From positions 20,290 through 84,289 of the forward strand of contig CADBZW010000017.1 in assembly GCA_902799345.1 (NCBI GenBank): 64,000 nucleotides of DNA, in the 5' to 3' direction. The DNA comes from an uncultured Bacteroidia bacterium. Its GTDB lineage: Bacteria; Bacteroidota; Bacteroidia; Bacteroidales; F082. The notes under the pieces were generated by a model. It did not search any database and had not been told where the DNA came from. It was given only the letters and a program-made list of their open reading frames with translations. Below are positions 36,853-59,475 of the stretch, piece by piece (within the stretch, counting starts at the first letter, position 1; each line of letters starts with the position of its first letter). The position numbers were made by a program, and so were the translations under genes.

Positions 36853-36897
36853 CACGGATAGATACACTCGCCCTTTGGGCTCGGTATGACATCCGTG
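36853..36897 (+). repeat. Covarying intercistronic hairpin, copy A
   Basis: Arms CACGGAT / ATCCGTG (7 bp, 36853-36859 and 36891-36897) enclose a 31-base core that starts AGATACACTC and ends TCGGTATGAC, with inner stem GCCC-TTT-GGGC. It lies 15 bases after idi, between co-directional idi and the porin gene. See copies at 42231 and 59398. Confidence 0.8.
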
Positions 36898-36976
36898 GCA
36901 AGGTTCGATATAACATGCTTTCAAAAAGTATTTAGCAAAAAGAAATAGTAAATATACTTACTATCGGTATTTTTAC

Positions 36977-36985
36977 TACTTTTGC
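36977..36985 (+). promoter_or_regulatory. -7 box for the porin gene
   Basis: TACTTTTGC, 38 bases upstream of the ATG at 37024. It argues against the alternative TTG start at 36982, which lies inside it. Confidence 0.65.
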
Positions 36986-37023
36986 AGCGTCAAAAATTGA
37001 AAACGTTATTAAAACCTACTACT

Positions 37024-38277
37024 ATGAAACACAAATTTCGCATTATCGTCGGGATGTTGCTTTTAGCCATTCCGTTGTGTATGAACGCACAAGTGAAGCC
37101 TGTCAAACCCCAGCAAAACCCTCAAAATAACGAGGCTAAAATGAAAGAAAAGCAAGAGGCTGAAAAAATCAGGATTGAACAAGAAAAACTTAACAAGCCC
37201 CAATCCGATATTAAGCCTCAAGTGAAGCCCGTGGATCAGCAGGCCAAACCTGCAGAAGCGCAAGAGAAGCCTGAAAAGAGCAAACCGAAACTCGGTGATT
37301 ACATTCAACTTTCGGGTTTCGTGCAAGGCATGTACCAAGCCAACCTGAGCGACGAAGGTGAGCTGACGAGCAATACTTTCAGGATGCGCCGCGTGCGTCT
37401 GTCCGTCGAAGGTACCCTTTACAAGGGCCTGACCTACAAGATCCAAGGCGACTTCAGCCGTTCGCCCATGCTCGTCGACGCTTACCTGAAGTACAAAGTT
37501 GCCGACGCTTTCGCCATCCAACTCGGTCAGTTCAAGACCCCGTTCTCGCTTGAAAGCCCCATCAATCCCGTCAACCTCGAGATTTTTGACTATGGTGAGA
37601 GCGTCCAGAAACTCGTCGGCTACAGCGATGTTTGCGGCGTGGGTTCATTGGGCCGCGACATCGGTCTGATGGCCACGGGAAAGCTCTTCCCCATCAAAGG
37701 CGGGGAAGGCAACGAATACCATGTTGTGGACTATGCCATCGGCGTGTTCAACGGCAACGGCCCCACTACTACCGACAACAACAACCGCAAGGACATTGTG
37801 GGCCGCCTCGAAGTGCATCCCGGCCTGAAGAACCTGACGCTGAGTGGTTCGTACTACTATGGCAAGTACACCAAAGACGACAACGTCAACTGCACCCGCA
37901 ACCGTTGGGCTGCCGGCGCACAGTACAATGATGGCAAGCTCGTCCTCCGTGGTGAATACATCGGTGGCAAGACAGGAGTGGAACCTACCCTTATCCCTGA
38001 AGACCTCGGCTATTACAACAGCAATGGTTACTATGCTGTGGCTGGCTACAACTTCAAGCTGGGCAAAGAAGGCAATCAGACGCTGATGCCCGTCCTCCGT
38101 TACGAGCATTTCACCGCCGACCAAGCCATCACAAAAGGCGGCACGAATTGGTATACCGCTGGCATCAACTACTGGCCGCTGAAGTGCCTCAACTTCAAGC
38201 TCGACTATTCATTGGTCCAGAAGGAAAGCGGCAGCAACTCACACCGCGTGGTGGGTATCTTGAGCTATAAGTTCTAA
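37024..38277 (+). CDS. Outer-membrane porin, OprO/OprP-like
   Basis: 417 residues. The signal peptide MKHKFRIIVGMLLLAIPLCMNAQ is followed by a ~70-residue Lys/Gln/Glu/Pro-rich, probably coiled-coil segment (NNEAKMKEKQEAEKIRIEQE), as in porins that trimerise through an N-terminal stalk. The barrel starts near residue 92 (GDYIQLSGFVQGMYQ) with the phosphate-selective porin O/P pattern (FRMRRVRLSVEGTL, QLGQFKTPFSLE) and ends in an aromatic Phe (VVGILSYKF). Anion or phosphate selectivity is inferred from the family. It may form a unit with the YeiH-type transporter 39 bases downstream. Confidence 0.9.
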   Translation: MKHKFRIIVGMLLLAIPLCMNAQVKPVKPQQNPQNNEAKMKEKQEAEKIRIEQEKLNKPQSDIKPQVKPVDQQAKPAEAQEKPEKSKPKLGDYIQLSGFVQGMYQANLSDEGELTSNTFRMRRVRLSVEGTLYKGLTYKIQGDFSRSPMLVDAYLKYKVADAFAIQLGQFKTPFSLESPINPVNLEIFDYGESVQKLVGYSDVCGVGSLGRDIGLMATGKLFPIKGGEGNEYHVVDYAIGVFNGNGPTTTDNNNRKDIVGRLEVHPGLKNLTLSGSYYYGKYTKDDNVNCTRNRWAAGAQYNDGKLVLRGEYIGGKTGVEPTLIPEDLGYYNSNGYYAVAGYNFKLGKEGNQTLMPVLRYEHFTADQAITKGGTNWYTAGINYWPLKCLNFKLDYSLVQKESGSNSHRVVGILSYKF

Positions 38278-38279
38278 TC

Positions 38280-38313
38280 TTGAATTTTGAATTTTAAATT
38301 TTGAATTTTGAAT
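38280..38313. repeat. A+T-rich short tandem repeat between porin and transporter genes
   Basis: Four imperfect copies of TTGAATTT(T) in about 34 bases just before the ATG at 38317. This is an intergenic tandem repeat of the sort seen at 2123-2153 and 3758-3810. Confidence 0.6.
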
Positions 38314-38316
38314 CTT

Positions 38317-39660
38317 ATGGCAAACAACAACATCTCCAATATCTGGAAAAAAGAGGACTGGCTGGCCGTGTGGATTGGCTTCATCGTCATCGCCGTGGCC
38401 TGCATCGCTGTACTGACTGGTTCGTTCGACTTCTCCGCCGCCAAGTTCGGCACCTGGCATTGGTGGGAAAACGTGGAAGAAAAGAAATCCTTGGCTGCCC
38501 AATTCAATGGTGAGTTTTGGATCAAGCTGCTTCGCACCTTCTTGGTGACGGGCATCTTGTTTGGCATCGGCATCAAGTTGCAAGGCGAAAAGATTGGAAA
38601 GTTCATTCCCGCTTTCGTTGTGCTGTTCCTCATCTGCATCGTGGTGCGCATGATTAGTGCAGAATACACCCTCAAGATGTACCTCGAATGGGCTTTCTGG
38701 GCCTTGCTCATCGGCCTGCTCATCTCCAACACTGTTGGCACGCCTGATTGGCTGAGACCCGCCATCCGCACTGAATTTTACATCAAGACGGGTTTGGTCA
38801 TCATGGGCTTCTCGGTGCTGTTCAGCAACATCGCCAAGTTCGGCCTCTACGGTCTCGGCATCGCCTGGATTGTGACACCTATCGTCATCATCTTCATGTG
38901 GTGGTTTGGCACCAAGGTGCTGAAAATCGACAACAAGCCTTTGGTCATCACTCTGGCTTCGGCCACTTCGGTGTGCGGCACTAGCGCTGCCATCGCCACG
39001 GGCGCGGCTGCCAAGGCCAAGAAGGAAGACCTCTCGATGGCCATTTCCATCTCCATCATCTTCACCATTTTGATGATGGTGTTCGAGCCGATGATCATCC
39101 GCGCTTGCGGCATGAACCAAATGATGGGCGGCGCCCTCATCGGCGGCACGGTCGACTCGACGGGTGCCGTGGTGCTGGCCGGTAGCGCCCTCGGCGAGGA
39201 AGCCGAACAGGTGGCCTCGTTGGTCAAGATGATCCAAAACATCCTCATCGGTTTCATCGCCTTCTTCGTGGCCATCTTCTTCGCCACCAAGGTCGACAAG
39301 GACCCGAACCAAAAGGTCGGCGCGGGCGAAATCTGGACCCGTTTCCCGAAGTTCATCATCGGTTTCTTCGTGGCTTCGTTGGTCGCCTCGTTCATCATCC
39401 TGCCCCTCACTGACGGCGCAACGGTGAAGTCGATCAACGGCGTGCTCGACCAATACAAGAACTGGGCCTTCGTGCTGGCTTTCACCAGTATCGGCCTCGA
39501 CACCAACTTCAAGAGCCTCTTTAAGCAGATGCAAGGCGGCAAGGTGCTGTGGCTCTACATCGTCGGTCAGGTGTTCAACATCCTGCTCACGCTGTTTGCC
39601 GTGTGGATCCTGCTTTCGGGCGTCATCTTCGAGGTTCCGAATCTTGACATGTTCAAATGA
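38317..39660 (+). CDS. YeiH/PF03601-family membrane transporter (putative sulfate exporter)
   Basis: 447 residues with about eleven membrane helices. The family signature is clear: ATSVCGTSAAIATGAAAKAK (about 222-241) and GGTVDSTGAVVLAGSALGEEAE (about 272-293). The family is annotated as putative sulfate exporters, but the substrate is not proven for this clade. The ATG at 38317 is preferred over a TTG three codons earlier. The stop overlaps the start of a small membrane protein (ATGA), suggesting a two-subunit unit, and a porin lies upstream. Confidence 0.88.
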   Translation: MANNNISNIWKKEDWLAVWIGFIVIAVACIAVLTGSFDFSAAKFGTWHWWENVEEKKSLAAQFNGEFWIKLLRTFLVTGILFGIGIKLQGEKIGKFIPAFVVLFLICIVVRMISAEYTLKMYLEWAFWALLIGLLISNTVGTPDWLRPAIRTEFYIKTGLVIMGFSVLFSNIAKFGLYGLGIAWIVTPIVIIFMWWFGTKVLKIDNKPLVITLASATSVCGTSAAIATGAAAKAKKEDLSMAISISIIFTILMMVFEPMIIRACGMNQMMGGALIGGTVDSTGAVVLAGSALGEEAEQVASLVKMIQNILIGFIAFFVAIFFATKVDKDPNQKVGAGEIWTRFPKFIIGFFVASLVASFIILPLTDGATVKSINGVLDQYKNWAFVLAFTSIGLDTNFKSLFKQMQGGKVLWLYIVGQVFNILLTLFAVWILLSGVIFEVPNLDMFK

Positions 39661-39950
39661 TGAACAAAAACCACAAAATCTTCAAAGTGATTACCATCGT
39701 CGTGGTGGTAATCACTTTGTTTTTGGCCGGCTGGATCATGGCCAACCAATTCGGTCTCGTCGAAGGCTACGACTTCGGCGCGGGAGCATATTATTATGCC
39801 GACATTCCCACCGAGCAATACCAAGAAATCGTCAACGAGGACGCTTACCAAACCTCCGTGCCGAAATGGATCTTTTACGTCCTCTTCTTCGCTTGGGGCT
39901 GGCTGATGTGGCGGCTTTGGGTGTGGATTGAGACGCGGGGAAAGAAATAG
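39657..39950 (+). CDS. Small two-helix membrane protein coupled to the YeiH-type transporter
   Basis: 97 residues. Helix one (VITIVVVVITLFLAGWIMANQF) and helix two (WIFYVLFFAWGWLMWRLWVWI, tryptophan-rich) flank a ~45-residue acidic, Tyr-rich loop (GYDFGAGAYYYADIPTEQY). No family recognised. Overlap with the transporter stop implies coupled translation and a role as accessory subunit, which is inference. Confidence 0.75.
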   Translation: MMNKNHKIFKVITIVVVVITLFLAGWIMANQFGLVEGYDFGAGAYYYADIPTEQYQEIVNEDAYQTSVPKWIFYVLFFAWGWLMWRLWVWIETRGKK

Positions 39951-39981
39951 GCCTTTTGACGTGTAATTCCATTTTTCTTTG

Positions 39982-39990
39982 TAAATTTGC
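39982..39990 (+). promoter_or_regulatory. -7 box for the amgK-rapZ fusion gene
   Basis: TAAATTTGC, 22 bases upstream of the ATG at 40013. Confidence 0.55.
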
Positions 39991-40012
39991 AGAATAGAAA
40001 AATGGAATTTCC

Positions 40013-41506
40013 ATGCAACCCCTAGAAACACAAAACATATTAGCTAAGCTGACGCATTCCATCGGCGAAACGCCTAAGGAAATCCTGCCCATCGCGGAAT
40101 CAGGCTCGGCGAGGAAGTATTTCCGTATCATCACCGACAAACGCAGTTTAATCGGCACCTATAGCAGCAACATCGAAGAAAACGAGGCCTTCCTCACTTT
40201 CAGCAAGCATTTTCATGACCTTGGACTGAACGTGCCGGAGGTCTTTGCCGTCAACGAAGAAAGGACATGCTATTTGCAAAGTGATTTTGGGGATGACAAT
40301 CTGTTTGCTCATGTGCAGAAAGCATTACTAGCTGTCGGCCCTTCGACCCTTCGAGGGGCCTCAGGGACCGCGGGCTCAGGGACCTTGATTCCACTTTATA
40401 AAAAAGCGCTGAGCCATCTGGTAAAACTGCAAGTGCTTGGGCACCAAGGCTTGGACTACAGCAAGGCCTACCCTACCGAACGCTTCGACAGGCAGGCCAT
40501 CATCGACGATCTTAACTATTTCAAGTACTACTTCGTCAAGCCGCACGAGGAAATCGACTTCAACGAGACACGCTTGGGCAAGGACTTCGAAGCCTTCGCC
40601 GACTTTGTCAGCCAAGCGCCCTGCGACTTCTTCATGTACCGCGACTTCCAGTCACGTAACATCATGGTCAAGGATGGCGAGCTATACTTCATCGACTTCC
40701 AAGGTGGACGCAAAGGCCCATTGAACTACGATGTGGTCTCGCTGCTCTATCAGGTGAAGGCGCAGATTCCACAAGCCATACGCGACGAACTAGTCGACTA
40801 TTACAAGGCCGAACTATCGCAATATATGAGCCCAGAAGCCGTCAAATTCGACACCTACCAGCCTTATTTCGTCTATTTACGCCTGATGCAAGTGCTCGGT
40901 GCCTACGGTTTCAGAGGCCTCATCCAAAAGAAATCGCATTTCATCGAGAGTATCCCCTACGCCTTGAAAGAACTGAAAGCCTGGAATGGAACCCACCCGT
41001 TAAACCAATACCCCGAACTCCAAAGCGTCATCTCCCAACTCTCCACTCTAAACTATCCACTCCCAACTGACTCTAAACTCTCAACTCTAAACTCTAAACT
41101 CACAGTAACCATCAACAGTTTCTCATTCAAAAAAGGCTACCCCAACGACTTCAGCGGCAACGGCGGCGGCTTCGTGTTCGACTGCCGTGCCTTGCCCAAT
41201 CCGGGTCGTGAGCCCGAGTTCAAGACCAAGACCGGCCGCGACTGGGAGGTCATCGACTACCTCATGGCCAAGCCACCCGTCCATGTCTTCCTCGACCATG
41301 TGAAAGGCATCGTCGGACAGAGCGTCGACAACTACCGCGAACGGCATTTCAGCAACCTGATGGTGTCGTTTGGCTGCACGGGCGGACAGCACCGTTCAGT
41401 CTTCTTTGCCCAGACCATATACGAATGGCTGAAGGCCACCTATCCTGACATCCATCTGAAACTGAACCACATAGAACGCAAAATCACGGAGGAGCACAAC
41501 GCATGA
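40013..41506 (+). CDS. AmgK-like amino-sugar kinase fused to a RapZ C-terminal domain
   Basis: 497 residues. The N-terminal ~345 residues are an aminoglycoside-phosphotransferase-fold kinase of the AmgK type (anomeric MurNAc/GlcNAc kinase), with catalytic MYRDFQSRNIMV and metal-binding YFIDFQGGRKGPLNYDVVSLL. The last ~135 residues (VTINSFSFKKGYPNDFSGNG ... NLMVSFGCTGGQHRSVFFAQ) are the RapZ C-terminal domain, which binds glucosamine-6-phosphate in E. coli. The joint (about 345-365) is encoded by a TAAACTC-type tandem repeat like those found between genes. A palindromic repeat at 40337-40384 adds about 16 residues (GPSTLRGASGTAGSGT) to the kinase. A MurU-like gene follows directly, so peptidoglycan sugar recycling is the likely role. 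Confidence 0.85.
   Translation: MQPLETQNILAKLTHSIGETPKEILPIAESGSARKYFRIITDKRSLIGTYSSNIEENEAFLTFSKHFHDLGLNVPEVFAVNEERTCYLQSDFGDDNLFAHVQKALLAVGPSTLRGASGTAGSGTLIPLYKKALSHLVKLQVLGHQGLDYSKAYPTERFDRQAIIDDLNYFKYYFVKPHEEIDFNETRLGKDFEAFADFVSQAPCDFFMYRDFQSRNIMVKDGELYFIDFQGGRKGPLNYDVVSLLYQVKAQIPQAIRDELVDYYKAELSQYMSPEAVKFDTYQPYFVYLRLMQVLGAYGFRGLIQKKSHFIESIPYALKELKAWNGTHPLNQYPELQSVISQLSTLNYPLPTDSKLSTLNSKLTVTINSFSFKKGYPNDFSGNGGGFVFDCRALPNPGREPEFKTKTGRDWEVIDYLMAKPPVHVFLDHVKGIVGQSVDNYRERHFSNLMVSFGCTGGQHRSVFFAQTIYEWLKATYPDIHLKLNHIERKITEEHNA
40337..40384. repeat. CCCTTCGA...TCAGGGACC palindromic repeat inserted in a coding sequence
   Basis: GGCCCTTCGACCCTTCGAGG followed by GGCCTCAGGGACCGCGGGCT and CAGGGACC forms overlapping inverted repeats, related to the dispersed CCCTTCGACAGGCTCAGGG element. 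It is translated in frame in the amgK-like domain. A relative is at 59042-59065. Confidence 0.7.
41037..41102. repeat. TAAACTC-type tandem repeat forming an interdomain linker
   Basis: About eight imperfect copies of (A)CTCTAAACT / CTCAACT. The 15-base word at 41071-41085 is the exact reverse complement of 10087-10101 at the end of cdaA. Here it codes for the linker LSTLNYPLPTDSKLSTLNSK. Confidence 0.75.
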
Positions 41507-42312
41507 AGCACGACATCACCGCCATGATACTGGCCGCCGGCTTGGGCACCCGCCTCAAAGCCTTGACGCAAGACAAGCCCAAAGCCTTGGTTCCGCTCAA
41601 CGGCAAGCCTTTGTTGCAGCATTGCATCGAAAACCTCATCGCCAATGGATTCCATCGTATCGTCATCAACGTGCATCATTTTGGCGAACAAATTATTGAT
41701 TTCGTGGAACATCATCAGTTCGATGCCGACATCGAAATCTCCGACGAACGCGACCTGCTGATGGACACGGGTGGCGGCATCGTCAAGGCCACGCCCCTAT
41801 TCAAGAACTCAAAAGCGGTTTTGGTGCATAATGTGGATATCATCAGCAATGTGAACCTTGGCGAGATGAGCAGACAATTCCTGGCATCAGGTGACGATGC
41901 TTGGTTGCTGACGCAAGATAGGGAGACCAACCGCAAACTGCTCTTCCGGGACGACCAGCAACTCATCGGCTGGCGCAATAAGGCAGACGGCAGTTTCAAG
42001 TGGGTTTACGATAGTTTTGGCGAATTCAAGGAGATGGCCTTCAGTGGGCTGCATTTGTTTCGCAGCGAATTGTTTGCTAGTTTTGAATGTAAACCTCAGA
42101 GCGTCATTGATTTGTACCTTTATTTAGCCAAAACCAAGCGCATCCTCTCGAAGCCCATCCAACCCGACTACTGGTTCGACTTGGGCAAACCCGAGCAACT
42201 GGAATACGCCGAAAACTACCTTATTACCAGCCCATGTCATTTCGAGGATTTTGAAGGCATAGATACACTCGCCTTCAAGGCTCGGTATGACATGCCTTCA
42301 AAATCCGAGTAA
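41503..42312 (+). CDS. murU: MurU-like nucleotidyltransferase (MurNAc-1-phosphate uridylyltransferase)
   Basis: 269 residues. The sugar-nucleotidyltransferase fold carries the signature MILAAGLGTRLKALTQDKPK (about residues 7-26), then ALVPLNGKPL and NVDIISN with the metal Asp near 106. With an AmgK-type kinase directly upstream and overlapping by ATGA, UDP-MurNAc salvage is the likely job, as known for the amgK-murU pair of Pseudomonas and of some Bacteroidetes. About 25 C-terminal residues (CHFEDFEGIDTLAFKARYD and on) are encoded by the hairpin repeat at 42231-42309, so the native C-terminus was probably replaced. GlmU-type GlcNAc-1-P activity is an alternative. Confidence 0.82.
   Translation: MKHDITAMILAAGLGTRLKALTQDKPKALVPLNGKPLLQHCIENLIANGFHRIVINVHHFGEQIIDFVEHHQFDADIEISDERDLLMDTGGGIVKATPLFKNSKAVLVHNVDIISNVNLGEMSRQFLASGDDAWLLTQDRETNRKLLFRDDQQLIGWRNKADGSFKWVYDSFGEFKEMAFSGLHLFRSELFASFECKPQSVIDLYLYLAKTKRILSKPIQPDYWFDLGKPEQLEYAENYLITSPCHFEDFEGIDTLAFKARYDMPSKSE
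42231..42309 (+). repeat. Covarying intercistronic hairpin, copy B (within the murU 3' end)
   Basis: 15-bp perfect arms GGATTTTGAAGGCAT / ATGCCTTCAAAATCC (42246-42260 and 42292-42306) enclose a 31-base core that starts AGATACACTC and ends TCGGTATGAC, with inner stem GCCTT-C-AAGGC. The leading CCCATGTCATTTCGAGGATT is shared with copy C. It ends 7 bases before the start of the next gene. Confidence 0.85.
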
Positions 42313-42316
42313 ATCT

Positions 42317-45214
42317 ATGGGCGAAAGCAAGACATTTATTCATAAACTGGCGGACCACATCCAAAGCCACTACGACCTCACCAGGCAGGAGCTAATCGTA
42401 GTTTTCCCCAACAAAAGGGCGGCATTCTATCTGCGTGATGAGCTGAAGAAAAACAGCCAGCAGACCATTTGGATGCCTCAGATGCTCTCCATCCAGGAGG
42501 CTTTCACGCAATGGAGCGGCATCGCACTGGCCGACAGCCTCGACGTGCTCTTTGAACTCATCGACATCGACGCGGAATTGCATATTGAGCAAAACAGCGA
42601 CCTCGGCGTCTTCGGCAGCCAAGCCACTCAGATGGCCAAGGACTTCGACGAGATCGACCAATACGGCTGCGACGCCAAACATGTGTTCAACTATGTCTTG
42701 GACAACAAAAAGCTGGAAATCTGGAACTTCGACGAAGAGAAAAGCAAGGAAAAAGAGGTGAAATATCTTCATTTCTTCCAGTCGCTTTACGATTACTACC
42801 TACGCCTCCGCGATAGGCTCAGCGAGCAAGGCAAAGGCTATTACGGCATGATCACCAGGTACTTGTCGGAGCTGAACGCCGAGGATTTGCTCAAAAAAGT
42901 GGGCGACAGGAAGATCGTCTTCGCCGGCTTCAACGCCTTGACCAATACCGAAGAACGCATCATCGACACCCTCGTGAAAAACGGCGTGGCCGACATCCTT
43001 TTCGACTACGACGCCTACTACCTCGACAGCCCCAACAACGAAGCTGGATTCTTTGGTCGCCGCTACCAAGCTAGACATCCCAACTGGCTCAAAAACGGCA
43101 TTTCCAACCGACTACAGACCGAGGAGAAGCACGTCCACATCATCAGCGCCAGCGGCAACGCCTTGCAGGCCAAAGCCTTACAATCCAAACTACAAGAAAT
43201 CCACGATGAACGCCAAGCCGTCATCCTCCCCGACCAGAACCTGCTCATCCCCGTGCTCAACGGCATCCCCGAAACCTATTCAGGCTTCAACGTCTCCATG
43301 GGTTATCCCTTGGCGAAGACACCCATCAACCAACTGGTCAAGGAATACTTTGCCTTGTGTCGACGCAAACGCATCTCGAGGAAAATCACCGAGAACGAGA
43401 CGGAACGCATTGCCGAGGGCTGGTACATCTGGCCCGTCTTACATCTCATGGACCTCGAAATCGTGAAAATCATTCTACCCCAAAGCGAGCAGGAGGCTTT
43501 CAGCCGTTGGAAATACGAAGCCGTGCAAAACGGGAAATTCATTTTCGAAGACGATGACATTGCGCGTTTGCAGCACATGCCCAAAACCCAGGCTTTTCTT
43601 ACGACTATCCTTCCCAAGTCTGGCGAAAACACACCCGACGCCCTCTTGGATAGCCTCTGCCAAATCATGGCATTTGTCGCCCAGACGATTCAAGAAAGGG
43701 AGATTGTCAAGGAGAGCGTATTCCTCCTCAACCAAGTGAGCGAAACAGGAAAAATCATCAGCAGGCTGCAAAACATCGTTGAGAGTAACGTAAAATACAT
43801 CAACAACTTGCAGAGCGTTGAGACATTATATCGCATGTTGGCCTCGGGCGCAAGTCTGAGACTCAACAGCAGCGCCACTGAGGGCTTGCAGATCATGGGA
43901 TTGCTGGAGACCCGCTGCCTCGACTTTGAGCGTCTGCACCTGCTCAGCGCCAACGAGGGTATCTTGCCCGCCGACAAGTCGCAGGGCAGCTTCATCCCCC
44001 ACTACATCCGCCGTGAATGTGGATTGCCAAGCTATGCCGAGAGCCAAGCGGTGGTGGCCTACCACTTCTATCACCTGCTGCAAAGCGGCAAGGAGATTTA
44101 CCTCTACTTCAACGACCTCGGCGAGACCTTCGGTGGCGAGGCCAGCCGTTTCATCCTGCAAATCAAGCACGAGCTGGACAAAAACGCCAATATACGTGTG
44201 ACGGAGGAATCGTTTAGCAGCATTGCCAATCCCTCACTCGAGGAGAAGCCCCTGTTCGCGAAGAAATCCGAGGAGACCTTAGCGCGGCTGCATTACCTCA
44301 CCCAAGAAAAAGGCCTCTCGCCTTCTTCCCTGTCGACCTATCTCAACTGCCCACTGAAATACTATCTGCATTACATCGCCGACATCAAAGACACGAGTAT
44401 TGAGGAGGACACGGGCACCAACGTCATTGGCAGCATCATCCACGACACACTGGAGTTCCTGTTTGCCGACTATCTCCCCGTCGACGACAAGCTGCAAGTC
44501 ATCGACAAAACGCTGTTCGACGAGAAAATCAAGCCCTTATGGGAGCAGAAGCTGGCGCAGTCTATCTCCAAAAACACGCCCAACGGCTTCCCCGACGTGG
44601 GCTTCAACTACCTCAACCGCGTCACCATCGAGCAGCAGCTGAAGAACTACCTAAAATACACCTCCGAGCAGCTGAAAAACAGCACCTTATCCATCCTAAA
44701 GACCGAAGGAGACCTTCAGGCAACCCTGCAGACCGACCATGGTAGTTACGTCTTCAGTGGCCGCGCCGACCGCATCGACCAATTTGGAGGCCTCATCCGC
44801 GTCATCGACTATAAGACCGGCCATGTTGATAACAACAACCTCAAGGTGCCGGTTCATCACCATGATGAAAATGTCTTAGACTATTTAAAGCTGATTCCAG
44901 AAAAGGCATTACAACTACTCCTCTACAAATACATGTATCTAAAAGAGAATCAAGCACTTTCACCCAAACAAGTCAGCGGCACCATCCATGGTTTGAAATA
45001 CGCCAACAACATAGAGTTTGGCCTATATCAAGAGGCTGCCAAGAGCAATGGTGCCGATGTCGACTTCCTCGGTGACGAATCTTTCATCAGCGACATGGAA
45101 GCCATGCTCGAAGCCGTGGTTACGGAAATGCTTGACACTAACATCCCATTCGTACAGGCCGAAGACAACAAAAAATGCGGGTATTGCGATTTTAGGATGA
45201 TTTGCAAGAGGTAA
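42317..45214 (+). CDS. AddB/RexB-like PD-(D/E)XK nuclease with Fe-S motif
   Basis: 965 residues from ATG at 42317 (MGESKTFIHKLADH). The N-terminal half resembles an inactivated helicase of the AddB type (VVFPNKRAAFYLRDEL; no intact Walker A). The C-terminal nuclease (about 670-965) has SPSSLSTYLNCPLKYYL, GRADRID, VIDYKTGH and the Cys cluster CGYCDFRMIC. Together with the Cys in LNCPLK this gives the four ligands of the AddB [4Fe-4S] cluster. A role in double-strand-break end resection with an AddA partner is inferred; no addA is in the window. The previous gene contributes the hairpin immediately before the start. Confidence 0.88.
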   Translation: MGESKTFIHKLADHIQSHYDLTRQELIVVFPNKRAAFYLRDELKKNSQQTIWMPQMLSIQEAFTQWSGIALADSLDVLFELIDIDAELHIEQNSDLGVFGSQATQMAKDFDEIDQYGCDAKHVFNYVLDNKKLEIWNFDEEKSKEKEVKYLHFFQSLYDYYLRLRDRLSEQGKGYYGMITRYLSELNAEDLLKKVGDRKIVFAGFNALTNTEERIIDTLVKNGVADILFDYDAYYLDSPNNEAGFFGRRYQARHPNWLKNGISNRLQTEEKHVHIISASGNALQAKALQSKLQEIHDERQAVILPDQNLLIPVLNGIPETYSGFNVSMGYPLAKTPINQLVKEYFALCRRKRISRKITENETERIAEGWYIWPVLHLMDLEIVKIILPQSEQEAFSRWKYEAVQNGKFIFEDDDIARLQHMPKTQAFLTTILPKSGENTPDALLDSLCQIMAFVAQTIQEREIVKESVFLLNQVSETGKIISRLQNIVESNVKYINNLQSVETLYRMLASGASLRLNSSATEGLQIMGLLETRCLDFERLHLLSANEGILPADKSQGSFIPHYIRRECGLPSYAESQAVVAYHFYHLLQSGKEIYLYFNDLGETFGGEASRFILQIKHELDKNANIRVTEESFSSIANPSLEEKPLFAKKSEETLARLHYLTQEKGLSPSSLSTYLNCPLKYYLHYIADIKDTSIEEDTGTNVIGSIIHDTLEFLFADYLPVDDKLQVIDKTLFDEKIKPLWEQKLAQSISKNTPNGFPDVGFNYLNRVTIEQQLKNYLKYTSEQLKNSTLSILKTEGDLQATLQTDHGSYVFSGRADRIDQFGGLIRVIDYKTGHVDNNNLKVPVHHHDENVLDYLKLIPEKALQLLLYKYMYLKENQALSPKQVSGTIHGLKYANNIEFGLYQEAAKSNGADVDFLGDESFISDMEAMLEAVVTEMLDTNIPFVQAEDNKKCGYCDFRMICKR

Positions 45215-51661: not shown

Positions 51662-51669
51662 CAAAATTA
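51662..51669 (-). promoter_or_regulatory. -7 box for the aldo/keto reductase gene
   Basis: Minus-strand TAATTTTG, 18 bases upstream of the ATG at 51643. Confidence 0.5.
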
Positions 51670-51732
51670 AAAAAAGAATTGATACACACCAACTTTTCAG
51701 TCCAAAAAAGTGGGCAAGACCCCGAAAAAACG

Positions 51733-51741
51733 TATTTTTGC
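51733..51741 (+). promoter_or_regulatory. aroQ: -7 box for aroQ
   Basis: TATTTTTGC ends 14 bases before the aroQ ATG. Confidence 0.6.
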
Positions 51742-51755
51742 AAAAAATTCCAACG

Positions 51756-52175: not shown

Positions 52176-52233
52176 AGATGCTCCTCATAAAAAAGCAGCG
52201 GCTTGAGGGTGTGACAGTCCAACAATGCCCAGT

Positions 52234-52303
52234 TTCCACAAATAAGGATACACGCTTATACTCAGCGGAATGTGTATTTTTTTAGCACTTTCCGCTGAGT
52301 ATA
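52234..52303 (+). repeat. Left direct repeat of the ATPase cassette (contains an inverted repeat)
   Basis: This 70-base unit recurs at 53759-53828 with four mismatches. The last 50 bases (52254-52303) are identical. Inside are arms TATACTCAGCGGAA / TTCCGCTGAGTATA around a ~19-base loop. Confidence 0.85.
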
Positions 52304-52316
52304 GATGGTTTTTTTC

Positions 52317-52325
52317 TATTTTTGC
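52317..52325 (+). promoter_or_regulatory. -7 box for the cassette ATPase
   Basis: TATTTTTGC, 23 bases upstream of the ATG at 52349 and 13 bases after the left direct repeat. Confidence 0.6.
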
Positions 52326-52348
52326 AGTCGAAAAAATCATGAAACACC

Positions 52349-53770
52349 ATGCTAATTGGAAGAATCAAGGAACAAGAACGGCTGCATAAAGCCGTTGCTG
52401 ATGAAGAATCCACGTTTGTGGCTGTCTACGGACGGCGTCGGGTGGGAAAGACCTACTTGGTACGTGAGACTTTCAGCAACAACTTCACATTTTATCATAC
52501 AGGCCTAGCCAGGTCGCCCATGAAAAAGCAACTTGCCGCATGGCGTCTGTCGCTCAGGGAACACGGATTGAAGACTGCCAAAACGCCTAAAACATGGCTG
52601 GACGCCTTTGATATGTTGAAAGACCTCGTGCGTCAATCAACCAAAACCAAGAAAATCCTGTTCATTGACGAACTTCCATGGATGGACACCCAACGTTCGG
52701 GCTTCGTTTCTGCGCTTGAGCATTTCTGGAACGGATGGGCCTCAGCACGAAAGGATGTCGTCTTGGTTGTATGCGGTTCCGCAACCTCTTGGATTGTCAA
52801 CAAAGTCATCAAAAACCATGGCGGACTTCACAATAGGGTGAACGTGAAAATACACCTGCAACCCTTCACATTGCATGAGTGTGAGGCATACGCCATCCAT
52901 AGAAAACTCGGCATGAGCCGTCGGCAACTGATGGAGTGTTACATGGTGATGGGCGGCATCCCTTACTATTGGTCCAAACTGGAGCGTGGCTACAGTTTGC
53001 AACAAAATATCGACAACTTGTTTTTTGCCCAAGACGGAGAATTGCACGACGAATATGGTGAGCTATATGCGTCTTTGTTCAAAAATCCCGAACCTTATAT
53101 CAAGGTGGTCTACACGCTTGGAACGAAAAAGACAGGCATGACCCGTGAGGAGCTTATCAAGGAAGGCAAACTGATTGATAACGGGAAACTCTCGTCAGTA
53201 TTGGAAGACCTGGAGGCTTGCGGATTCATCAGGAAATACAACGCTTTCGGCTTGAAAACGAAAAACGCCGTGTTCCAACTCATCGACTTCTACACGCTGT
53301 TTTACTACAAATTCATCCAACACAACGCCCAAGGTGACGAGCATTTTTGGTCATCGCAGGCGAGCACCTCGCTCTATTACAACTGGTGTGGTTTGGCCTT
53401 TGAGCGGGTATGCCTTCTCCATCTACCCCAGATCAAGACGGCACTTGGCATCAGCGGGATAGTCAGCAACGCATATTCATGGCGCTCGCTGCCGACAAAG
53501 CAAGGCGAAAAAGGAGCGCAAATTGATTTGCTTATCGACCGCAACGACAATGTCATCGATCTCTGTGAGATGAAATACACCAAGGATCCTTACGAAGAGG
53601 ACAGCGAAGAAGACAAGAAGGTGCAACACCGTCTCTCACGATTCCTTTCCGACACAAAAACGAACAAGGCCGTGCATCTTGTCCTGATTTCCGCCAACAG
53701 TGTTAAGCGCAATGCTTATTCTGATGAATTTCAGTTTGTTATTACCTCAGAAGCACTTTTCCACGAATAA
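52349..53770 (+). CDS. Archaeal-type AAA ATPase with DUF234 C-terminal domain
   Basis: 473 residues. P-loop GRRRVGKTYLVRE (about residues 28-40), Walker B KILFIDELPWMDT (near 108-120), then VVCGSATSWIVNKV as sensor. A helical/winged region follows, and the DUF234 nuclease-like domain begins near residue 340 (GLAFERVCLLHLPQIK ... GAQIDLLIDRNDNVIDLCEMKY, a PD-(D/E)XK-like D...E-x-K pattern). The family is scattered across gut Bacteroidetes in many copies and its function is not established. The gene sits between near-identical direct repeats, and its final codons (FHE, stop) lie in the right one, which suggests a mobile or duplicated cassette. Confidence 0.88.
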   Translation: MLIGRIKEQERLHKAVADEESTFVAVYGRRRVGKTYLVRETFSNNFTFYHTGLARSPMKKQLAAWRLSLREHGLKTAKTPKTWLDAFDMLKDLVRQSTKTKKILFIDELPWMDTQRSGFVSALEHFWNGWASARKDVVLVVCGSATSWIVNKVIKNHGGLHNRVNVKIHLQPFTLHECEAYAIHRKLGMSRRQLMECYMVMGGIPYYWSKLERGYSLQQNIDNLFFAQDGELHDEYGELYASLFKNPEPYIKVVYTLGTKKTGMTREELIKEGKLIDNGKLSSVLEDLEACGFIRKYNAFGLKTKNAVFQLIDFYTLFYYKFIQHNAQGDEHFWSSQASTSLYYNWCGLAFERVCLLHLPQIKTALGISGIVSNAYSWRSLPTKQGEKGAQIDLLIDRNDNVIDLCEMKYTKDPYEEDSEEDKKVQHRLSRFLSDTKTNKAVHLVLISANSVKRNAYSDEFQFVITSEALFHE

Positions 53771-53828
53771 GAACACATGCTTATACTCAGCGGAATGTGT
53801 ATTTTTTTAGCACTTTCCGCTGAGTATA
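53759..53828 (+). repeat. Right direct repeat of the ATPase cassette
   Basis: Copy of 52234-52303 with four mismatches in the first 20 bases and the last 50 bases identical. Here the inverted repeat extends to 16 bp (CTTATACTCAGCGGAA / TTCCGCTGAGTATAAG). Confidence 0.85.
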
Positions 53829-53854
53829 AGACAAATTTTCAACTATCTTACCAG

Positions 53855-53970
53855 TTATAAACCTAGCTCGGCCAAGGCGCTTGCGGGTTGTTCACCTTCC
53901 TTAATCGAGCTGCGCGCAATGAAATGATATGGCGTAAATATAAAATAAAGTGCACAAATAAAAAATAAAG
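53855..53970 (-). pseudogene. Possible remnant of a gene end (no start codon)
   Basis: A minus-strand open frame without a start reads TPYHFIARSSIKEGEQPASA and then LAELGL before its stop, between the cassette repeat and the glycosyltransferase end. It is too short to assign. It could be a leftover of the integration site or chance. Confidence 0.25.
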
Positions 53971-53978
53971 ACGGCTAA

Positions 53979-54998: not shown

Positions 54999-55876
54999 GC
55001 TGCTTCGGGTCTTTGGTGTTTCCAGCGACGGTGCGACCATAGCCAGTTATCGGGGTTGGCTTGTATAAAACGCTCTAAGCAACGCACATAGCGCTCCATG
55101 ATCTCTCCGTTTTGCGTCTCCTTGGGATTATCCGTAATCAGTTCATATCTAACCTCGTAGAGCCCCCTACCCCGTCTTCGCATATCCACGAAGACAATGG
55201 AATAGTCAAGGCTTTTGGCAATACGCTCGATGCCCGTAAACCAGCAGGTATCCTGATGCAAAAACTCGGTCCAATAGTCCGATGCCAGTCCATGCGGGGT
55301 TTGGTCCGCCATCATCAGCACGGCGTTCCATTGGTTACGACGCTGCACCAGGTGTTTAAAGGCCGTATCCGCCTCTGCGGTCTCCACCGAGATGCCTTTT
55401 GTACGCATCATCAGCATCAACGCGTCGAAAGCGGGGTTTTTCACCTTCTTATAAACAGCCACGTTATTGTAGGGCGCAAACGAAGGTATCATCTTGCCAT
55501 ACCACTCCCAGTTGCCCGAATGAGGGATGGCGTAGAAAATACTCTTTTTCCGTTCAATAAGTCTATCCAGCACCTCGGGATTGACATAGGTGATGCGCTT
55601 GCTGTAGCCATTCGGCCCCATGCACATCATCTTCGGGGCCTCCACGAACAGGTCACAGAGGTTGCGGTAGAAATGTTTTTCGATGGTTTTTATCTCCTTT
55701 TCGTCCTTTTCAGGGAAAGAACGCAAGAGGTTCTGCCTCACTACATTACGACGATAGCGCACCACATGATACATAAGAAAACAATACACATCGGATTTCA
55801 GATAGAGCAGCCAATAGGGTTGGATGGACTGAAAGTCCACCCACCATTTCAGCAAATAAAATCCGATGCTCTTCAT
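54995..55876 (-). CDS. LpxL/HtrB-type lipid A acyltransferase family protein
   Basis: 293 residues. The catalytic HSGNWEW (H-x4-E, near residues 118-124) and the closing NPDNWLWSHRRWKH are family hallmarks. It is expected to add a secondary acyl chain to lipid A at the inner membrane. The N-terminal helix is weak (YWLLYLKSDVYCFLMYHVV), as is common in Bacteroidetes versions. It lies 5 bases after the GWxTD gene and overlaps the glycosyltransferase by 4 bases. Confidence 0.92.
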   Translation of the reverse strand: MKSIGFYLLKWWVDFQSIQPYWLLYLKSDVYCFLMYHVVRYRRNVVRQNLLRSFPEKDEKEIKTIEKHFYRNLCDLFVEAPKMMCMGPNGYSKRITYVNPEVLDRLIERKKSIFYAIPHSGNWEWYGKMIPSFAPYNNVAVYKKVKNPAFDALMLMMRTKGISVETAEADTAFKHLVQRRNQWNAVLMMADQTPHGLASDYWTEFLHQDTCWFTGIERIAKSLDYSIVFVDMRRRGRGLYEVRYELITDNPKETQNGEIMERYVRCLERFIQANPDNWLWSHRRWKHQRPEAA

Positions 55877-55881
55877 TGCTC

Positions 55882-57357
55882 TTATCTCGGATTGTTGTAC
55901 AAATCACCGGCGTGCGAGCCCCAGGTATCTTCAAACTCGGTTTGGTCGACGCCCTGTTCCCTATTGCCAACACCGAGACGCGAATAAATCTCCATCTGCC
56001 AACGGGGATTGTAGGTTTCGCCAACCATATTGGAATGAATGAGTTGGTAATCGCCAGCGGCGGTGTCCTGCGACATGAACACAAAACGTATATTGCGCCT
56101 GTGCATCAGCTCGTAATAAAACCAAATCTCGTAAGGATAGGCATTAGGCTCGTTGGGGCTTTCCATGATTTTGTCAGGCACACCGTACTTGAGGAAGACA
56201 TAGCCACGGTCGGTGCGGTAACCAGGATAGGACGAGGTCTTGAACGACATATTGACGCGGTTCACAGCTGCCATATAATCATCAAAGCCTTGCTTCGGGT
56301 TCATCGGCGAACGTGCGCTCCAGAAGTTGAACAGGAACTGCTGCATGGTCCTCACATCGTCGGTCTTCACGAGGCTGTTGGTATAATCCTGTTCAGTCTC
56401 AGTGCAAACCGGGTATAGATAGTTGATGTATTTGCGCAGCGTGTCGACATCGGTGATAGTGCTCACGAAGGTGTTGGCGATATTCACGCCGCCGAGGTCT
56501 TGCAAGTCATAACCTGCCCCTGGTTTACTGCGTTGGAAGAAGCAGCTATTGGAGCACACCAAGGTGTTGCTGCGGTCGCGCATCTCGATGACAAGGTAAT
56601 AGTTGCCCGAAGGCAGTTCCTTGATATCTATGGTGTTGAGCAGCACATTGACTTTGCTCACGTCAAAGCGCTTGCTGAAGTTATAGTCTTGCATACGGCT
56701 TGACGACTCAACAGTCTCGATGTAGTAGTTGACGAGGAACTTACCCTCATCGTAGAGTTTGTCGCTATTGTACATCTCGGCGTAGAAATGCAGCTTATCC
56801 TCATTGGCGCCATAGAATGGATACACACGAGGCAGGAAATCGTAGCCGCTCTTGGTACACTCCGACGGCTTTTCGGCCTTGGTGTAGGAGTCGAACAACA
56901 AGATGTCGGAAACGGCAGGCGCGTTATCGGGGTAGTTGACTGCCACCGTAACCGTCGAGGTGGGCAAGACATCGCCGCTGTTCATGTCGGTGACGCCAAT
57001 CTCCATCTGGTATTCGCCGTTTTCCAGAGAGAAGCGCTGTTGACAGAGGAAAGCGCCGTCGAGGTTGGCGGTGTCGGTCACCACGGGGCTGTCCACCGCA
57101 ACCTTGGAGAAAGTGGACTCCTCTCCTTTTCTGAAGACGGTCACGACTTGCACCGTAGCCTTAAACTTTCCGGGTTCAAATTCCTTGTAAACCGCCGAAC
57201 GGTTCTCGAAGGCGATGACGTTTTCCACAAAGGGAGATATTCCTGGGGCACAATAAGTTGTCGTTGAGAGGTAAGGCTTCAACTTCTTGGCTTTTGTCTG
57301 CGCGTTGCCCGCCATAGCGAGGAAGGCAAGCATGATGATAATGAATGTTTTTTTCAT
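55882..57357 (-). CDS. GWxTD-domain exported protein
   Basis: 491 residues with signal peptide [20 protein letters not shown]. The N-terminal ~300 residues form beta-rich Ig-like units. The C-terminal GWxTD domain (about 375-480) reads [17 protein letters not shown], with Tyr in place of the name-giving Trp. [20 protein letters not shown] follows. Members are periplasmic or surface proteins of unknown function. Here it leads a unit with lipid A acylation and glycosyl transfer genes, which hints at envelope work. Confidence 0.87.
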
Positions 57358-57379
57358 AGCGAACCTATTATTTCATTTT

Positions 57380-57388
57380 GCAAAAATA
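57380..57388 (-). promoter_or_regulatory. -7 box for the GWxTD-lpxL-GT2 unit
   Basis: Minus-strand TATTTTTGC, 23 bases upstream of the ATG. Confidence 0.6.
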
Positions 57389-57450
57389 GTGATTTCGTTG
57401 CAATTAGGAATTTTTTCAAGAAAAAAAACGCAACCAAACGAAAAATGTTG

Positions 57451-57459
57451 TACTTTTGC
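57451..57459 (+). promoter_or_regulatory. -7 box for the tRNA-Ser pair
   Basis: TACTTTTGC ends only three bases before the mature tRNA 5' end (57463). Transcription should therefore begin at or very near the tRNA itself, leaving almost no leader for RNase P. Confidence 0.6.
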
Positions 57460-57462
57460 AGC

Positions 57463-57574
57463 GGAGATATGGCTGAGTGGTCGATAGCGGCGGTCTTGAA
57501 AACCGTTAAGCCGAAAGGCTTCGGGGGTTCGAATCCCTCTGTCTGCTTCGGGGGTTCGAATCCCTCTGTCTCCG
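57463..57574 (+). tRNA. tRNA-Ser (anticodon TGA) with tandemly duplicated T-arm
   Basis: Acceptor strand GGAGATA (57463-57469), anticodon stem GCGGT/ACCGT with loop CTTGAAA (anticodon TGA), and a long class II variable arm (AGCC-GAAA-GGCT). The T-arm GGGGGTTCGAATCCCTC then appears twice because 27 bases (57519-57545) are repeated at 57546-57572 with one difference. After copy one the acceptor partner is TGTCTGC (one G-G mismatch, ending 57546). After copy two it is TGTCTCC (fully paired, ending 57573). The mature molecule could use either copy, or the gene may be defective. Confidence 0.85.
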
Positions 57575-57627
57575 CAAGGCGGCGCAAGTCGCCTTTATAA
57601 TGAAAAGACCCTGCCTAAGGGCAGTAA

Positions 57628-57713
57628 GGAGAGATGCCGGAGTGGTCGATCGGGGCGGTCTCGAAAACCGTTGAACGCTTTGCGTTCCAAGGGTTCGAAT
57701 CCCTTTCTCTCCG
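57628..57713 (+). tRNA. tRNA-Ser (anticodon CGA)
   Basis: 86 bases. Acceptor GGAGAGA pairs with TCTCTCC, anticodon loop CTCGAAA gives CGA, the variable arm is AACGC-TTT-GCGTT and the T-arm is AAGGGTTCGAATCCCTT. It lies 53 bases after the first tRNA-Ser and is probably co-transcribed with it. Confidence 0.93.
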
Positions 57714-57720
57714 CAAAAAG

Positions 57721-57748
57721 AAAAGGCAAGCTTTGGCTTGCCTTTTTT
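57721..57748 (+). terminator. Terminator after the tRNA-Ser pair
   Basis: Stem AAAAGGCAAG / CTTGCCTTTT with a 6-base loop is followed by more T residues. It ends at the stop codon of the convergent binding-protein gene and may act in both directions. Confidence 0.85.
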
Positions 57749-59412
57749 CATTTATTAGAGATCTTCACCCGCCTCAAATCCAGCAGATTCGTCGGATTGC
57801 TCCCCATGTCCTTCACACGCTTGTTGACGAAACGCAGCACCTCATCGTAGAACAGCACCACCACGGGCGCTTCCTGCATCATCAGGCTGTCCATCTCGGT
57901 GTAGTATTGGGCACGCTGCTCCAAATCGTTGCAGAGCAAGGCTTTGTCATAAAGCTGGTCGTATTTGGGATTGGAATAGTGGCAGTAATTCGGTCCCATA
58001 GGAGCGAAATTACTCGTCGTGAACAGCGAGAGGTAGTTCTCCGCATCGGGGTAGTCGGCCACCCACGATGCACGGAAAAACGGAAGGCTACCGTTGCCTC
58101 TCATGCTACGCAAGGTGGCAGGCGGCATCACCTCCATCTTACATTGCAGCCCGATTTGCTCCACCTGACTCTGCACAAACTTACCAATGTCGGCATAGTC
58201 GGCCACGGTAGAGAGCTGCAATAGATAGCCTTCGAGTTGGTTTTCTTTCACCAATCGCTGCGCCTGCTTCAAGTCGTAGCCGTAGCCGATGCTTGAGCTG
58301 TGTCCAGGCAAACCCACGGGTATCATGCCGCCTGTGCCCGGCTCGCCGATGCCGTTGCGCAGATAACGCAGCATCTTCTCGCGGTCGATACACAGGTTGA
58401 CCGCCTGCCGTAATGCCTTGGCACGTTCAGGTCCCAACGGGTCGTCGGGGTCGATGAAGAACGAGAAATACTCGGTGTTCAGATAAGGCTCGGTAATGAG
58501 GTCAATCTTGTCCACATACTTCTTGCGCAGCTGGCCGTCATAGGTCAGCAGTTCGTCCTTGTAGCGCGCGTCGATGCCCGACATGAAGTCGAACTTGCCC
58601 TTGATGAACTCCAAAAACGCCACCTGCTTGTCGATGAGGAAGCTGACGGAGACGGCGTCGATATAAGGCAGCCTCTCCCCTGCCGCGTCACGCTCGAAAT
58701 AGTCGGGATTCTTGCGGAATACGAGCTTTACGCTCTCTTTCCAATACTGGAACTTGAACGGCCCCGTCCCGACGGGATGGCTGCGGAAGTCGTCGCCGTA
58801 ATACTCGACGGCTTCGTGCGGCACCACCGAGGCGTAGGTCATCGAGAGGATGCCCAAAAACGGCGGGAAAGGCTTGGTCAGCTCGATCTGGAAAGTGGTG
58901 TCGTCCAAGGCCGTGAAGGCATATTGGTCTTCATCGTGTTTCACCGACGAGAATATCCACATGCCAGGCGAGTTCAAGCGCTTGTCGACCACACGGTTAA
59001 AGGAATAGACGAAGTCTTGGGCAGTGACCCTACGAGGAGACGGCCCTTCGACAGGCTCAGGGGCCTGTTTTTCCCCCTTAAAACACTCATCCTCATGGAA
59101 TTGCACATCGTCCCGCAGATGGAAAGTATACACCAGGCCATCCTCGCTGACGTCCCATGACTTGGCCACCATCGGGACGAGGTTCATCTTGTCGTCGAAA
59201 GCCACGAGGCTGTTGAACACCTGGTTGCAGGCCCAGATATGCGGCAAGTCCTTGGCATAGATCGGGTCAAGGGTGAGGATGCCGGCGGATTCGTTGTACT
59301 TGAAGATGGCGAGGTTTTCATCGTCATCATGTCGCTTTCCACATGAAGCGAAGACAAGCAGCACAACCATCACAAGCCATGCCCATAGATTCCTTTCGGA
59401 TTTTATCGGCAT
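57748..59412 (-). CDS. ABC-transporter substrate-binding lipoprotein (SBP_bac_5, peptide type)
   Basis: 554 residues from ATG at 59410-59412. The start MPIKSERNLWAWLVMVVLLVFASC contains a lipobox (FASC). The start codon itself lies in the left arm of hairpin copy C. The family 5 solute-binding fold is clear (LTLDPIYAKDLPHIWACNQV, RVTAQDFVYSFNRV, HPVGTGPFKFQYW, ALRQAVNLCIDREKML). A dispersed palindromic repeat at 59042-59065 adds EKQAPEPVEGPSP-like residues in frame before RRVTAQDF. Oligopeptide uptake is the family role; the lone DppB-type permease at 5589 could be its partner, but the genes are 50 kb apart. Confidence 0.9.
   Translation of the reverse strand: MPIKSERNLWAWLVMVVLLVFASCGKRHDDDENLAIFKYNESAGILTLDPIYAKDLPHIWACNQVFNSLVAFDDKMNLVPMVAKSWDVSEDGLVYTFHLRDDVQFHEDECFKGEKQAPEPVEGPSPRRVTAQDFVYSFNRVVDKRLNSPGMWIFSSVKHDEDQYAFTALDDTTFQIELTKPFPPFLGILSMTYASVVPHEAVEYYGDDFRSHPVGTGPFKFQYWKESVKLVFRKNPDYFERDAAGERLPYIDAVSVSFLIDKQVAFLEFIKGKFDFMSGIDARYKDELLTYDGQLRKKYVDKIDLITEPYLNTEYFSFFIDPDDPLGPERAKALRQAVNLCIDREKMLRYLRNGIGEPGTGGMIPVGLPGHSSSIGYGYDLKQAQRLVKENQLEGYLLQLSTVADYADIGKFVQSQVEQIGLQCKMEVMPPATLRSMRGNGSLPFFRASWVADYPDAENYLSLFTTSNFAPMGPNYCHYSNPKYDQLYDKALLCNDLEQRAQYYTEMDSLMMQEAPVVVLFYDEVLRFVNKRVKDMGSNPTNLLDLRRVKISNK
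59042..59065. repeat. CCCTTCGACAGGCTCAGGG palindromic repeat in a coding sequence
   Basis: GGCCCTTCGACAGGCTCAGG plus GGCC carries inverted arms GGCCC(T) / (A)GGGGCC. It is an instance of the widely dispersed CCTGAGCCTGTCGAAGGG element and is translated as PEPVEGP in the binding protein. Confidence 0.75.
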
Positions 59413-59475
59413 GTCATACCGAACCTTTAGGTGAGTGTATCTATGCCGATAAAATCCTCGGAATGACATGGGCAT
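59398..59475 (-). repeat. Covarying intercistronic hairpin, copy C (carries the start codon of the binding-protein gene)
   Basis: 15-bp perfect arms GGATTTTATCGGCAT / ATGCCGATAAAATCC (59398-59412 and 59443-59457) enclose a 30-base core. On the minus strand the core starts AGATACACTC and ends TCGGTATGAC, with inner stem ACCT-AA-AGGT. The outer GCCCATGTCATTCCGAGGAT (minus strand) matches copy B. It lies between lon and the binding-protein gene, both minus. Confidence 0.85.

Follow-up and report, generated by a model that had tools for sequence, protein, structure and literature searches.

What are the hairpins that recur between genes in a 64,000-nucleotide stretch (the window) of contig CADBZW010000017.1 from an uncultured Bacteroidia bacterium, and what has multiplied them while keeping their arms matched? 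Three such hairpins share a core of the form AGATACACTC-N10/11-TCGGTATGAC. They are probably, by no means certainly, non-autonomous nested mobile elements resembling repetitive extragenic palindromic (REP) sequences, whose autonomous form would carry a GIY-YIG gene encoding the nuclease that cuts, moves and flips them. Copies are inserted at sites that are empty in related genomes, they are inverted between species at both levels of their arms, and the arms covary. Modules of the same kind bracket a small nuclease gene, and similar bracketing occurs in other phyla. Comparisons draw on the window's own genome (G000) and on genomes of the same genus (among them G004, G018, G064, G069, and G077), with individual loci given L-numbers. 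The genus is probably gut-associated, because G069 is the rumen metagenome-assembled genome RUG13515.

Nested hairpins, their insertion and their inversion

A base-by-base check found all three copies where the initial annotation had placed them, with core, arms, and inner stems as it described. Its account of their extent was too narrow: the hairpins are present, but each is larger, having an outer module and another pair of arms around it (Table 1). The conserved module, GTCATNCCGA/GAGNGNATCT, occurs twice per element, usually in opposite orientation. Across 103 copies from four genomes, the element reads arm A, AT, GTCATNCCGA, arm B, AT, AGATACNCTC, and stem-loop C, followed by TCGGTATGAC, AT, arm B', GAGNGNATCT, AT, and arm A'; the outer module repeats the sequence of the inner one, normally on the other strand. 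A simple pattern scored 59 of these copies as antiparallel-nested, 5 as parallel, and 2 as mixed, and recognised no outer module in 37. The outer module is present in all three window copies; that of copy 1 is less decayed in the G064 ortholog (L118). Orthologs of copy 3 (L117, L149) hold a 24-base insert, AAATGCTTTGCATTCGGCGGAGCC or similar, inside the module tail, which the window copy lacks; L216, L217, and L101 also carry such an insert. An uninterrupted B hairpin (CCGAGGNTTTTN{4,32}AAAANCCGA) that could have served as a pre-existing target was found in 0 of 99 genus genomes, which suggests that the nested form spreads as a single unit, at least for the arm type searched.

Evidence for movement comes from empty sites. 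A protein search with the gene upstream of copy 2 matched 92 of the 99 genus genomes, and the 30 top-ranking loci were inspected. Of these, 28 are without copy 2, leaving G000 and G069 as its only carriers; at the empty site in G064 the flanks are 96 and 98% identical. Fifteen further G000/G064 sites were queried with their joined flanks, giving clear absences at sites 26, 29, 43, 40, and 12, and at sites 26 and 29 the A arms are part of the insertion. Site 34 holds an insertion in the loop of a terminator-like host hairpin (TTTTTGCC-GTT-GGCAAAAA). Sites 15, 54, 28, and 62 aligned poorly, other repeats occupy the partner genome at sites 32, 36, and 44, and site 3 has the same element in both; the copy 3 site is likewise occupied in G064 and G004. 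The hairpins are very likely mobile, DNA-level elements.

At two places (G000:C9:124700-125100, L194; G064:C28:3400-3850, L196) the corresponding position in the partner genome is taken by another armed hairpin, which suggests that the target spot is reused or the hairpin replaced repeatedly.

Orientation also changes between species. In 38 ortholog comparisons at 23 loci, the inner unit had the same orientation relative to its host in 24 and was inverted in 14; with one dimer locus dropped (two comparisons, one of each kind), inversion is seen in 13 of 36 comparisons, at 9 of 22 loci. The whole element is flipped between its A arms at five loci (e.g., L020/L131, with nearly identical flanks), and the inner unit alone is flipped between the B arms at four (L021/L158, L095/L128, L108/L135, L112/L150). 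Because the elements are short, assembly error would be an unlikely general cause of flips in these draft assemblies. The route could be enzyme-free template switching at inverted repeats, or cutting and re-sealing at the module junctions.

Compensated changes in the arms had been read as selection on the folded form, either as RNA or as single-stranded DNA. Once near-identical arms were dropped, 54 of the 103 copies were left, and Watson-Crick pairing in their arms is 77.2%, against 45.6% (standard deviation 1.9, maximum 51.5) when right arms were swapped between copies in 2000 shuffles, a control in which relatedness is not kept. The B arms vary at each position past the first three inner ones, with at most four pair types per position, and are mostly still paired. 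Folds of copies 1 to 3 give z values of -3.4, -7.3, and -7.2 as RNA and -2.6, -7.6, and -5.8 as single-stranded DNA, relative to dinucleotide shuffles. Covariation and a kept fold are upheld; selection at the level of RNA is not supported. Imperfect arm pairs comprise 35 G.U, 35 A.C, and 115 others, so G.U has no edge over A.C and the covariation gives no sign of RNA; the transcribed strand, with 22 G.U and 14 A.C, gives RNA-level selection no clear support. Most likely the hairpins work in the form of single-stranded or cruciform DNA. In 18 of 28 ortholog pairs the element has diverged less than its flanks, in-place inversions being scored as divergence; in seven pairs, all at loci scored inverted, element divergence is 0.35-0.60. 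Purifying selection is not claimed, because mean divergence is 0.156 for the element and 0.125 for the flanks.

The family was counted by its core pattern, exact or with one base allowed to vary, in a search for exact half-motifs that misses diverged copies. G000 has 17 exact cores and 33 copies with one base variable (the three of the window included), and the pattern read backwards matches it 0 times. The core pattern is found in 21 of the 99 genus genomes; in a sample of 149 genomes from across the order, the window's genome is its sole carrier. The suspected kinship with the wider GTCATTCCGAG...GGAATCT dispersed repeats is supported. Rfam gave two transfer RNA (tRNA) matches in the window and none to the hairpins above the gathering score.

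The window copies had also been described as lying between co-directional genes, in one orientation relative to transcription. With genes assigned by a crude gene finder, this location is the usual but not the exclusive one among the 33 G000 copies (19 co-directional, 4 convergent, 3 divergent, and 7 within a predicted gene). The common orientation applies to all three window copies but is a weak bias beyond them: 13 same and 6 opposite among the 19 co-directional copies, and 30 and 17 in four genomes, with orthologs counted repeatedly. Homologs of the nucleotidyltransferase that hosts copy 2, where they have no element, end near its insertion point. Copy 3 may supply the start codon (the ATG of arm B') of the substrate-binding protein's open reading frame (ORF).

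A GIY-YIG nuclease bracketed by modules

A small GIY-YIG gene in G004 lies between modules of the window's exact type. The nuclease has 93 residues and matches PF01541 at 63.4 bits. Among 11 sequences, Y7, Y18, G20, R28, and E65 are invariant and N84 is conserved in at least 90%; we take these six to be the catalytic GIY-YIG residues. Matches above 100 bits define a nuclease subfamily with 21 members in 17 of the 99 genus genomes, the locus being at hand for 20. A left module lies upstream of 19 of these genes and a right module downstream of 19, with both present at 18; the exceptions are L258, which stops 63 bases past the gene, and L264, which is below the upstream threshold. The bracketing test was not blind, because about 14 of the 20 loci had already been read when its module detection rule was drawn up. 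Random placements had modules on both sides in 0 of 580 cases at 29 nucleotidyltransferase loci, in 0 of 220 at 11 loci of other GIY-YIG/uvrC genes, and in 5 of 600 at 30 loci from the joined-flank queries, many of them repeat-bearing. At nuclease loci the left arms are typically GCCTCCCAT/../ATGGGAGGC and the right arms GGCTT..GAAAGCAT/../ATGCTTTC..AAGCC. Left-right pairs with a short spacer and no ORF were seen by eye in each of four sampled genomes. The window's exact core comes within 350 bases of the nuclease gene at 3 of the 20 loci (on both sides in G004 and G077, on one side of a G064 copy).

Repeat and nuclease subfamily also tend to share genomes: by a hand tally, 12 of the 99 genomes have both, 9 the repeat only, 5 the nuclease only, and 73 neither (Fisher p = 1.2e-6). 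The hairpins likely belong to a GIY-YIG-linked family.

Other small GIY-YIG subfamilies of the genus have, by eye, other palindromes of the CGTC type (a REP class compared below) alongside them (L202, L204, L212, L222, L234, L235, L243, L246, L249). Other taxa were represented by the best 80 of 563 public-genome relatives, minus the same-genus L293 (leaving 79), and by 13 of 34 plasmid-collection records, a total of 92, with full flanks in 86. Counting hairpins of the CGTC type in the expected orientation, 54 of these 86 loci have one upstream, 63 have one downstream, and 44 have both, against 41, 33, and 5 of 280 displaced placements. Azospirillum lipoferum, Neisseria gonorrhoeae, and Aeromonas caviae are among the plasmid records with hairpins on both sides; in six of the 13 the strict test found a hairpin on neither side. 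Read by eye, some loci that failed the strict test, in plasmids as in other taxa, have variant palindromes. A different repeat (GGCCCTTCGAC...GGGGCC type) occurs twice in the window, within listed host ORFs (40326-40361 and 59031-59066), and one like it is found on the flanks of another small GIY-YIG subfamily in the genus (L203, L206, L210, L213, L218, L223).

The proposed autonomous form would consist of a left armed module, the GIY-YIG nuclease gene, and a right armed module. Each armed module would be an arbitrary self-complementary stem, then AT/GTCATNCC...GGNATCT/AT, then a small stem-loop. The window copies would be nested miniatures, in which a left-end-type hairpin (arm A and outer module) holds a right-end-type one (arm B and inner module) in its loop, end types being assigned by arm resemblance. 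When the region turns single-stranded (through lagging-strand synthesis or transcription) or is extruded, the hairpin would expose AT/GTCAT and ATCT/AT junctions, where the nuclease would cut, and the excised or re-joined hairpin would enter a new site or be re-sealed in reverse. We infer from sequence that this nuclease makes the cuts and that movement and flipping both result from them; as the mobilising and flipping enzyme it is the best available hypothesis. A broader proposal is more tentative: that transposition by a 93-residue GIY-YIG nuclease, and not by an HUH, DDE, tyrosine, or serine enzyme, may move, nest, and flip single-stranded DNA hairpins, with CGTC-type REPs as its non-autonomous passengers.

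The initial annotation had thought of a REP-type transposase; a tyrosine transposase was rejected as the enzyme. The three Y1_Tnp genes found in G000, read by eye, sit among other repeats (Table 1), with the full core at 0 of the 3 loci and one isolated half-motif in L024. They are possible RAYT (REP-associated tyrosine transposase) systems existing beside the GIY-YIG one.

Table 1. Nested elements of the window, their host genes, and the Y1_Tnp genes of the same genome (G000)
Feature	Position	Strand	Sequence or remark
Copy 1, whole nested element	36824..36926	+	outer module decayed (from sequence)
Copy 1, A arm	within 36824..36926	+	TTTTGAAGGCGT / ATGCTTTCAAAA
Copy 1, outer module	36836-36845 / 36905-36914	+	AGAAACGCTC / TCGATATAAC
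Copy 1, B arm	36846-36859 / 36891-36904	+	
Copy 1, inner module	36860..36890	+	AGATACACTC-GCCCTTTGGGC-TCGGTATGAC
Copy 2, whole nested element	42230..42322	+	A arm GCCCAT / ATGGGC
Copy 2, outer module	42236-42245 / 42307-42316	+	GTCATTTCGA / GAGTAAATCT
Copy 2, B arm	42246-42260 / 42292-42306	+	GGATTTTGAAGGCAT / ATGCCTTCAAAATCC
Copy 2, inner module	42261..42291	+	AGATACACTC-GCCTTCAAGGC-TCGGTATGAC
Copy 3, whole nested element	59379..59475	-	A arm ATGCCCAT / ATGGGCAT
Copy 3, outer module	59458-59467 / 59387-59397	-	GTCATTCCGA / GAAAGGAATCT
Copy 3, B arm	59443-59457 / 59398-59412	-	GGATTTTATCGGCAT / ATGCCGATAAAATCC
Copy 3, inner module	59413..59442	-	AGATACACTC-ACCTAAAGGT-TCGGTATGAC
Host nucleotidyltransferase gene	41503..42312	+	last codons and stop come from copy 2
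Host substrate-binding protein ORF as listed	57748..59502	-	5' part overlapped by copy 3
Y1_Tnp genes, each with its own repeat family	G000:C20, C10, C4 (L022, L023, L024)		repeats CCCCGTAGGGG; GGCGACGTAAGTCCCTGC; CCTGAAAGGACG

The window holds other repeats as well. Within a 112-base tRNA match (57463-57574), 27 bases are perfectly duplicated in tandem (57518-57544, 57545-57571). Two 71-base copies (52233-52303 and 53758-53828), 94% alike, have a palindrome, TATACTCAGCGGAA...TTCCGCTGAGTATA, and are unrelated to the hairpin family.

Weighing the explanations

Several points weigh against nested elements mobilised by their own nuclease. The case for cutting, excision, and insertion is comparative throughout. 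At 18 of the 20 nuclease loci the modules are sister types, not the exact core on both sides (e.g., GTCATTCC...GGAATCT), and G000's own nuclease (G000:C29, L230) is one of these 18. Co-occurrence is weaker among 41 close relatives (nucleotidyltransferase identity of at least 72%, plus G004 and G018 added by hand), where the corresponding counts are 12, 8, 5, and 16 (p = 0.028), so shared ancestry accounts for part of the association. The nuclease subfamily is absent from 9 of the 21 repeat-bearing genomes, several of which are incomplete. In the 86 loci of other taxa, the strict motif is missing on at least one side at 42 and on both sides at 13, and stands in the unexpected orientation upstream at 24 and downstream at 30. 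Inversion between inverted repeats, moreover, can arise by template switching with no enzyme at all. That process is central to an unlikely alternative, in which the hairpins are passive palindromes that owe their ancient spread to an unknown or extinct transposase, template switching matches their arms and inverts them, and the GIY-YIG gene is a passenger or an inserter at repeat sites. The inner flips swap exactly the segment between inverted B arms, the lack of a G.U excess (35 against 35) is what DNA-level palindrome correction predicts, and many copies occupy the same site in two or three species, so much of the family is old. A passenger, however, is not expected to be bracketed by inverted modules at 18 of 20 loci and again in other phyla, and there are insertions missing in a close relative (copy 2 against G064; sites 26 and 29).

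The strong RNA folds, the 19 of 33 G000 copies between co-directional genes, the one copy in a terminator-like hairpin, and the 18 of 28 ortholog pairs with element divergence below that of the flank would all suit terminators or stabilisers of messenger RNA 3' ends, kept as RNA folds by selection. This explanation is nevertheless very improbable: the G.U preference on the transcribed strand (22 against 14) is not significant, copies also lie inside predicted genes and between convergent or divergent ones, orientation flips across species, and no T run directly follows the three window copies (no terminator scan was run). The modules could instead be nuclease recognition sites for DNA uptake or genome defence, multiplied as a by-product and not by transposition. 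A 2025 paper on Ssn reportedly describes site-specific single-strand GIY-YIG nucleases in Neisseria with a repeated target (NTS) that modulate transformation, and the conserved GIY-YIG residues, together with the same gene/palindrome pairing in the Neisseria record L282, fit such a role. Taken by itself it leaves the paired left and right ends, the ORF-less pairs, the insertions, and the nesting unexplained, and it is held to be highly doubtful. The preferred explanation remains that of nested hairpins moved and flipped by the GIY-YIG nuclease. Because this tiny nuclease is bracketed by modules for which insertions, ORF-less derivatives, and inversions at orthologous sites are found, the enzyme question for CGTC REPs can now be tested directly, using a single protein of 93 residues and short oligonucleotides. 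With orthologous sites that are naturally empty, filled, or flipped, the family is also suited to studying the evolution of bacterial hairpins, the upkeep of matched arms, and changes to gene ends.

Relation to known repeat systems

CGTC REPs are defined in Di Nocera et al. 2013 (PMC3733652), where no dedicated or associated transposase is reported for them, and some dimers sit inside palindromes. As described there, they are like the present elements in having a TGTC tag followed by AT, an AT before the tail, mostly intergenic positions, inverted pairs, and no flanked tyrosine transposase gene. In the modules, TGTC precedes AT and the stem starts as GTC-AT...AT-CT. CGTC REPs have a continuous stem of 8-9 base pairs, a loop of 4-5 nucleotides, and a mostly CCA and unpaired tail. 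The modules, in contrast, have a stem start of the AT-N-C type with 4 base pairs (ATAC/GTAT), then mismatches and a variable stem or nested module; their tail is CTA(T), with its AT paired within the arm; their pairs are nested as well as side-by-side; and they bracket a GIY-YIG gene. Head-head dimers predominate among CGTC REPs; the copies here include the 59 of 103 scored antiparallel-nested and some side-by-side pairs. Because the tag and AT start are shared whereas the continuous stem of 8-9 base pairs and the CCA tail are not, the modules are relatives of CGTC REPs, not members of the four families in PMC3733652. For this bacterial repeat class, reported without an enzyme of its own, the nuclease is the prime suspect as the spreader.

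GTAG REPs and REPINs with their RAYTs (see also PMC3733652) are likewise miniature, paired, non-autonomous hairpins presumed to be mobilised in trans. The GTAG unit ends in GTAG/GTGG, whereas the present units have TGTC/CTA (103 copies, by eye; no search was aimed at GTAG). In RAYT systems the cognate Y1 gene is flanked by the repeat, whereas the three Y1_Tnp genes found in G000 carry other repeats. The nuclease is related in sequence to two UPF0213 proteins of known structure, PDB 1zg2 (E = 1.8e-8) and 1ywl (E = 2.4e-7); they are titled hypothetical, with no repeat partner named there. Literature searches on GIY-YIG with palindromes or single-stranded DNA, covering titles and abstract openings in a partial library, did not find the nuclease-repeat pairing.

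IS200/IS605 elements have two hairpin ends around a small nuclease gene and an HUH/Y1 enzyme. Their layout is like that proposed here, where the enzyme would be GIY-YIG and not HUH/Y1. Ssn reportedly combines, in a similar way, a small GIY-YIG nuclease with a multicopy sequence, and in L282 palindromes of the CGTCATTCCCGC type stand beside the small GIY-YIG gene; Ssn is said to modulate transformation, whereas the present system is a nested, invertible mobile hairpin. If Ssn is as reported, the pairing of nuclease and repeat is not new in itself, and the novelty here would lie in the nested architecture, the left-gene-right form and its ORF-less derivatives, the empty sites, and the inversions.

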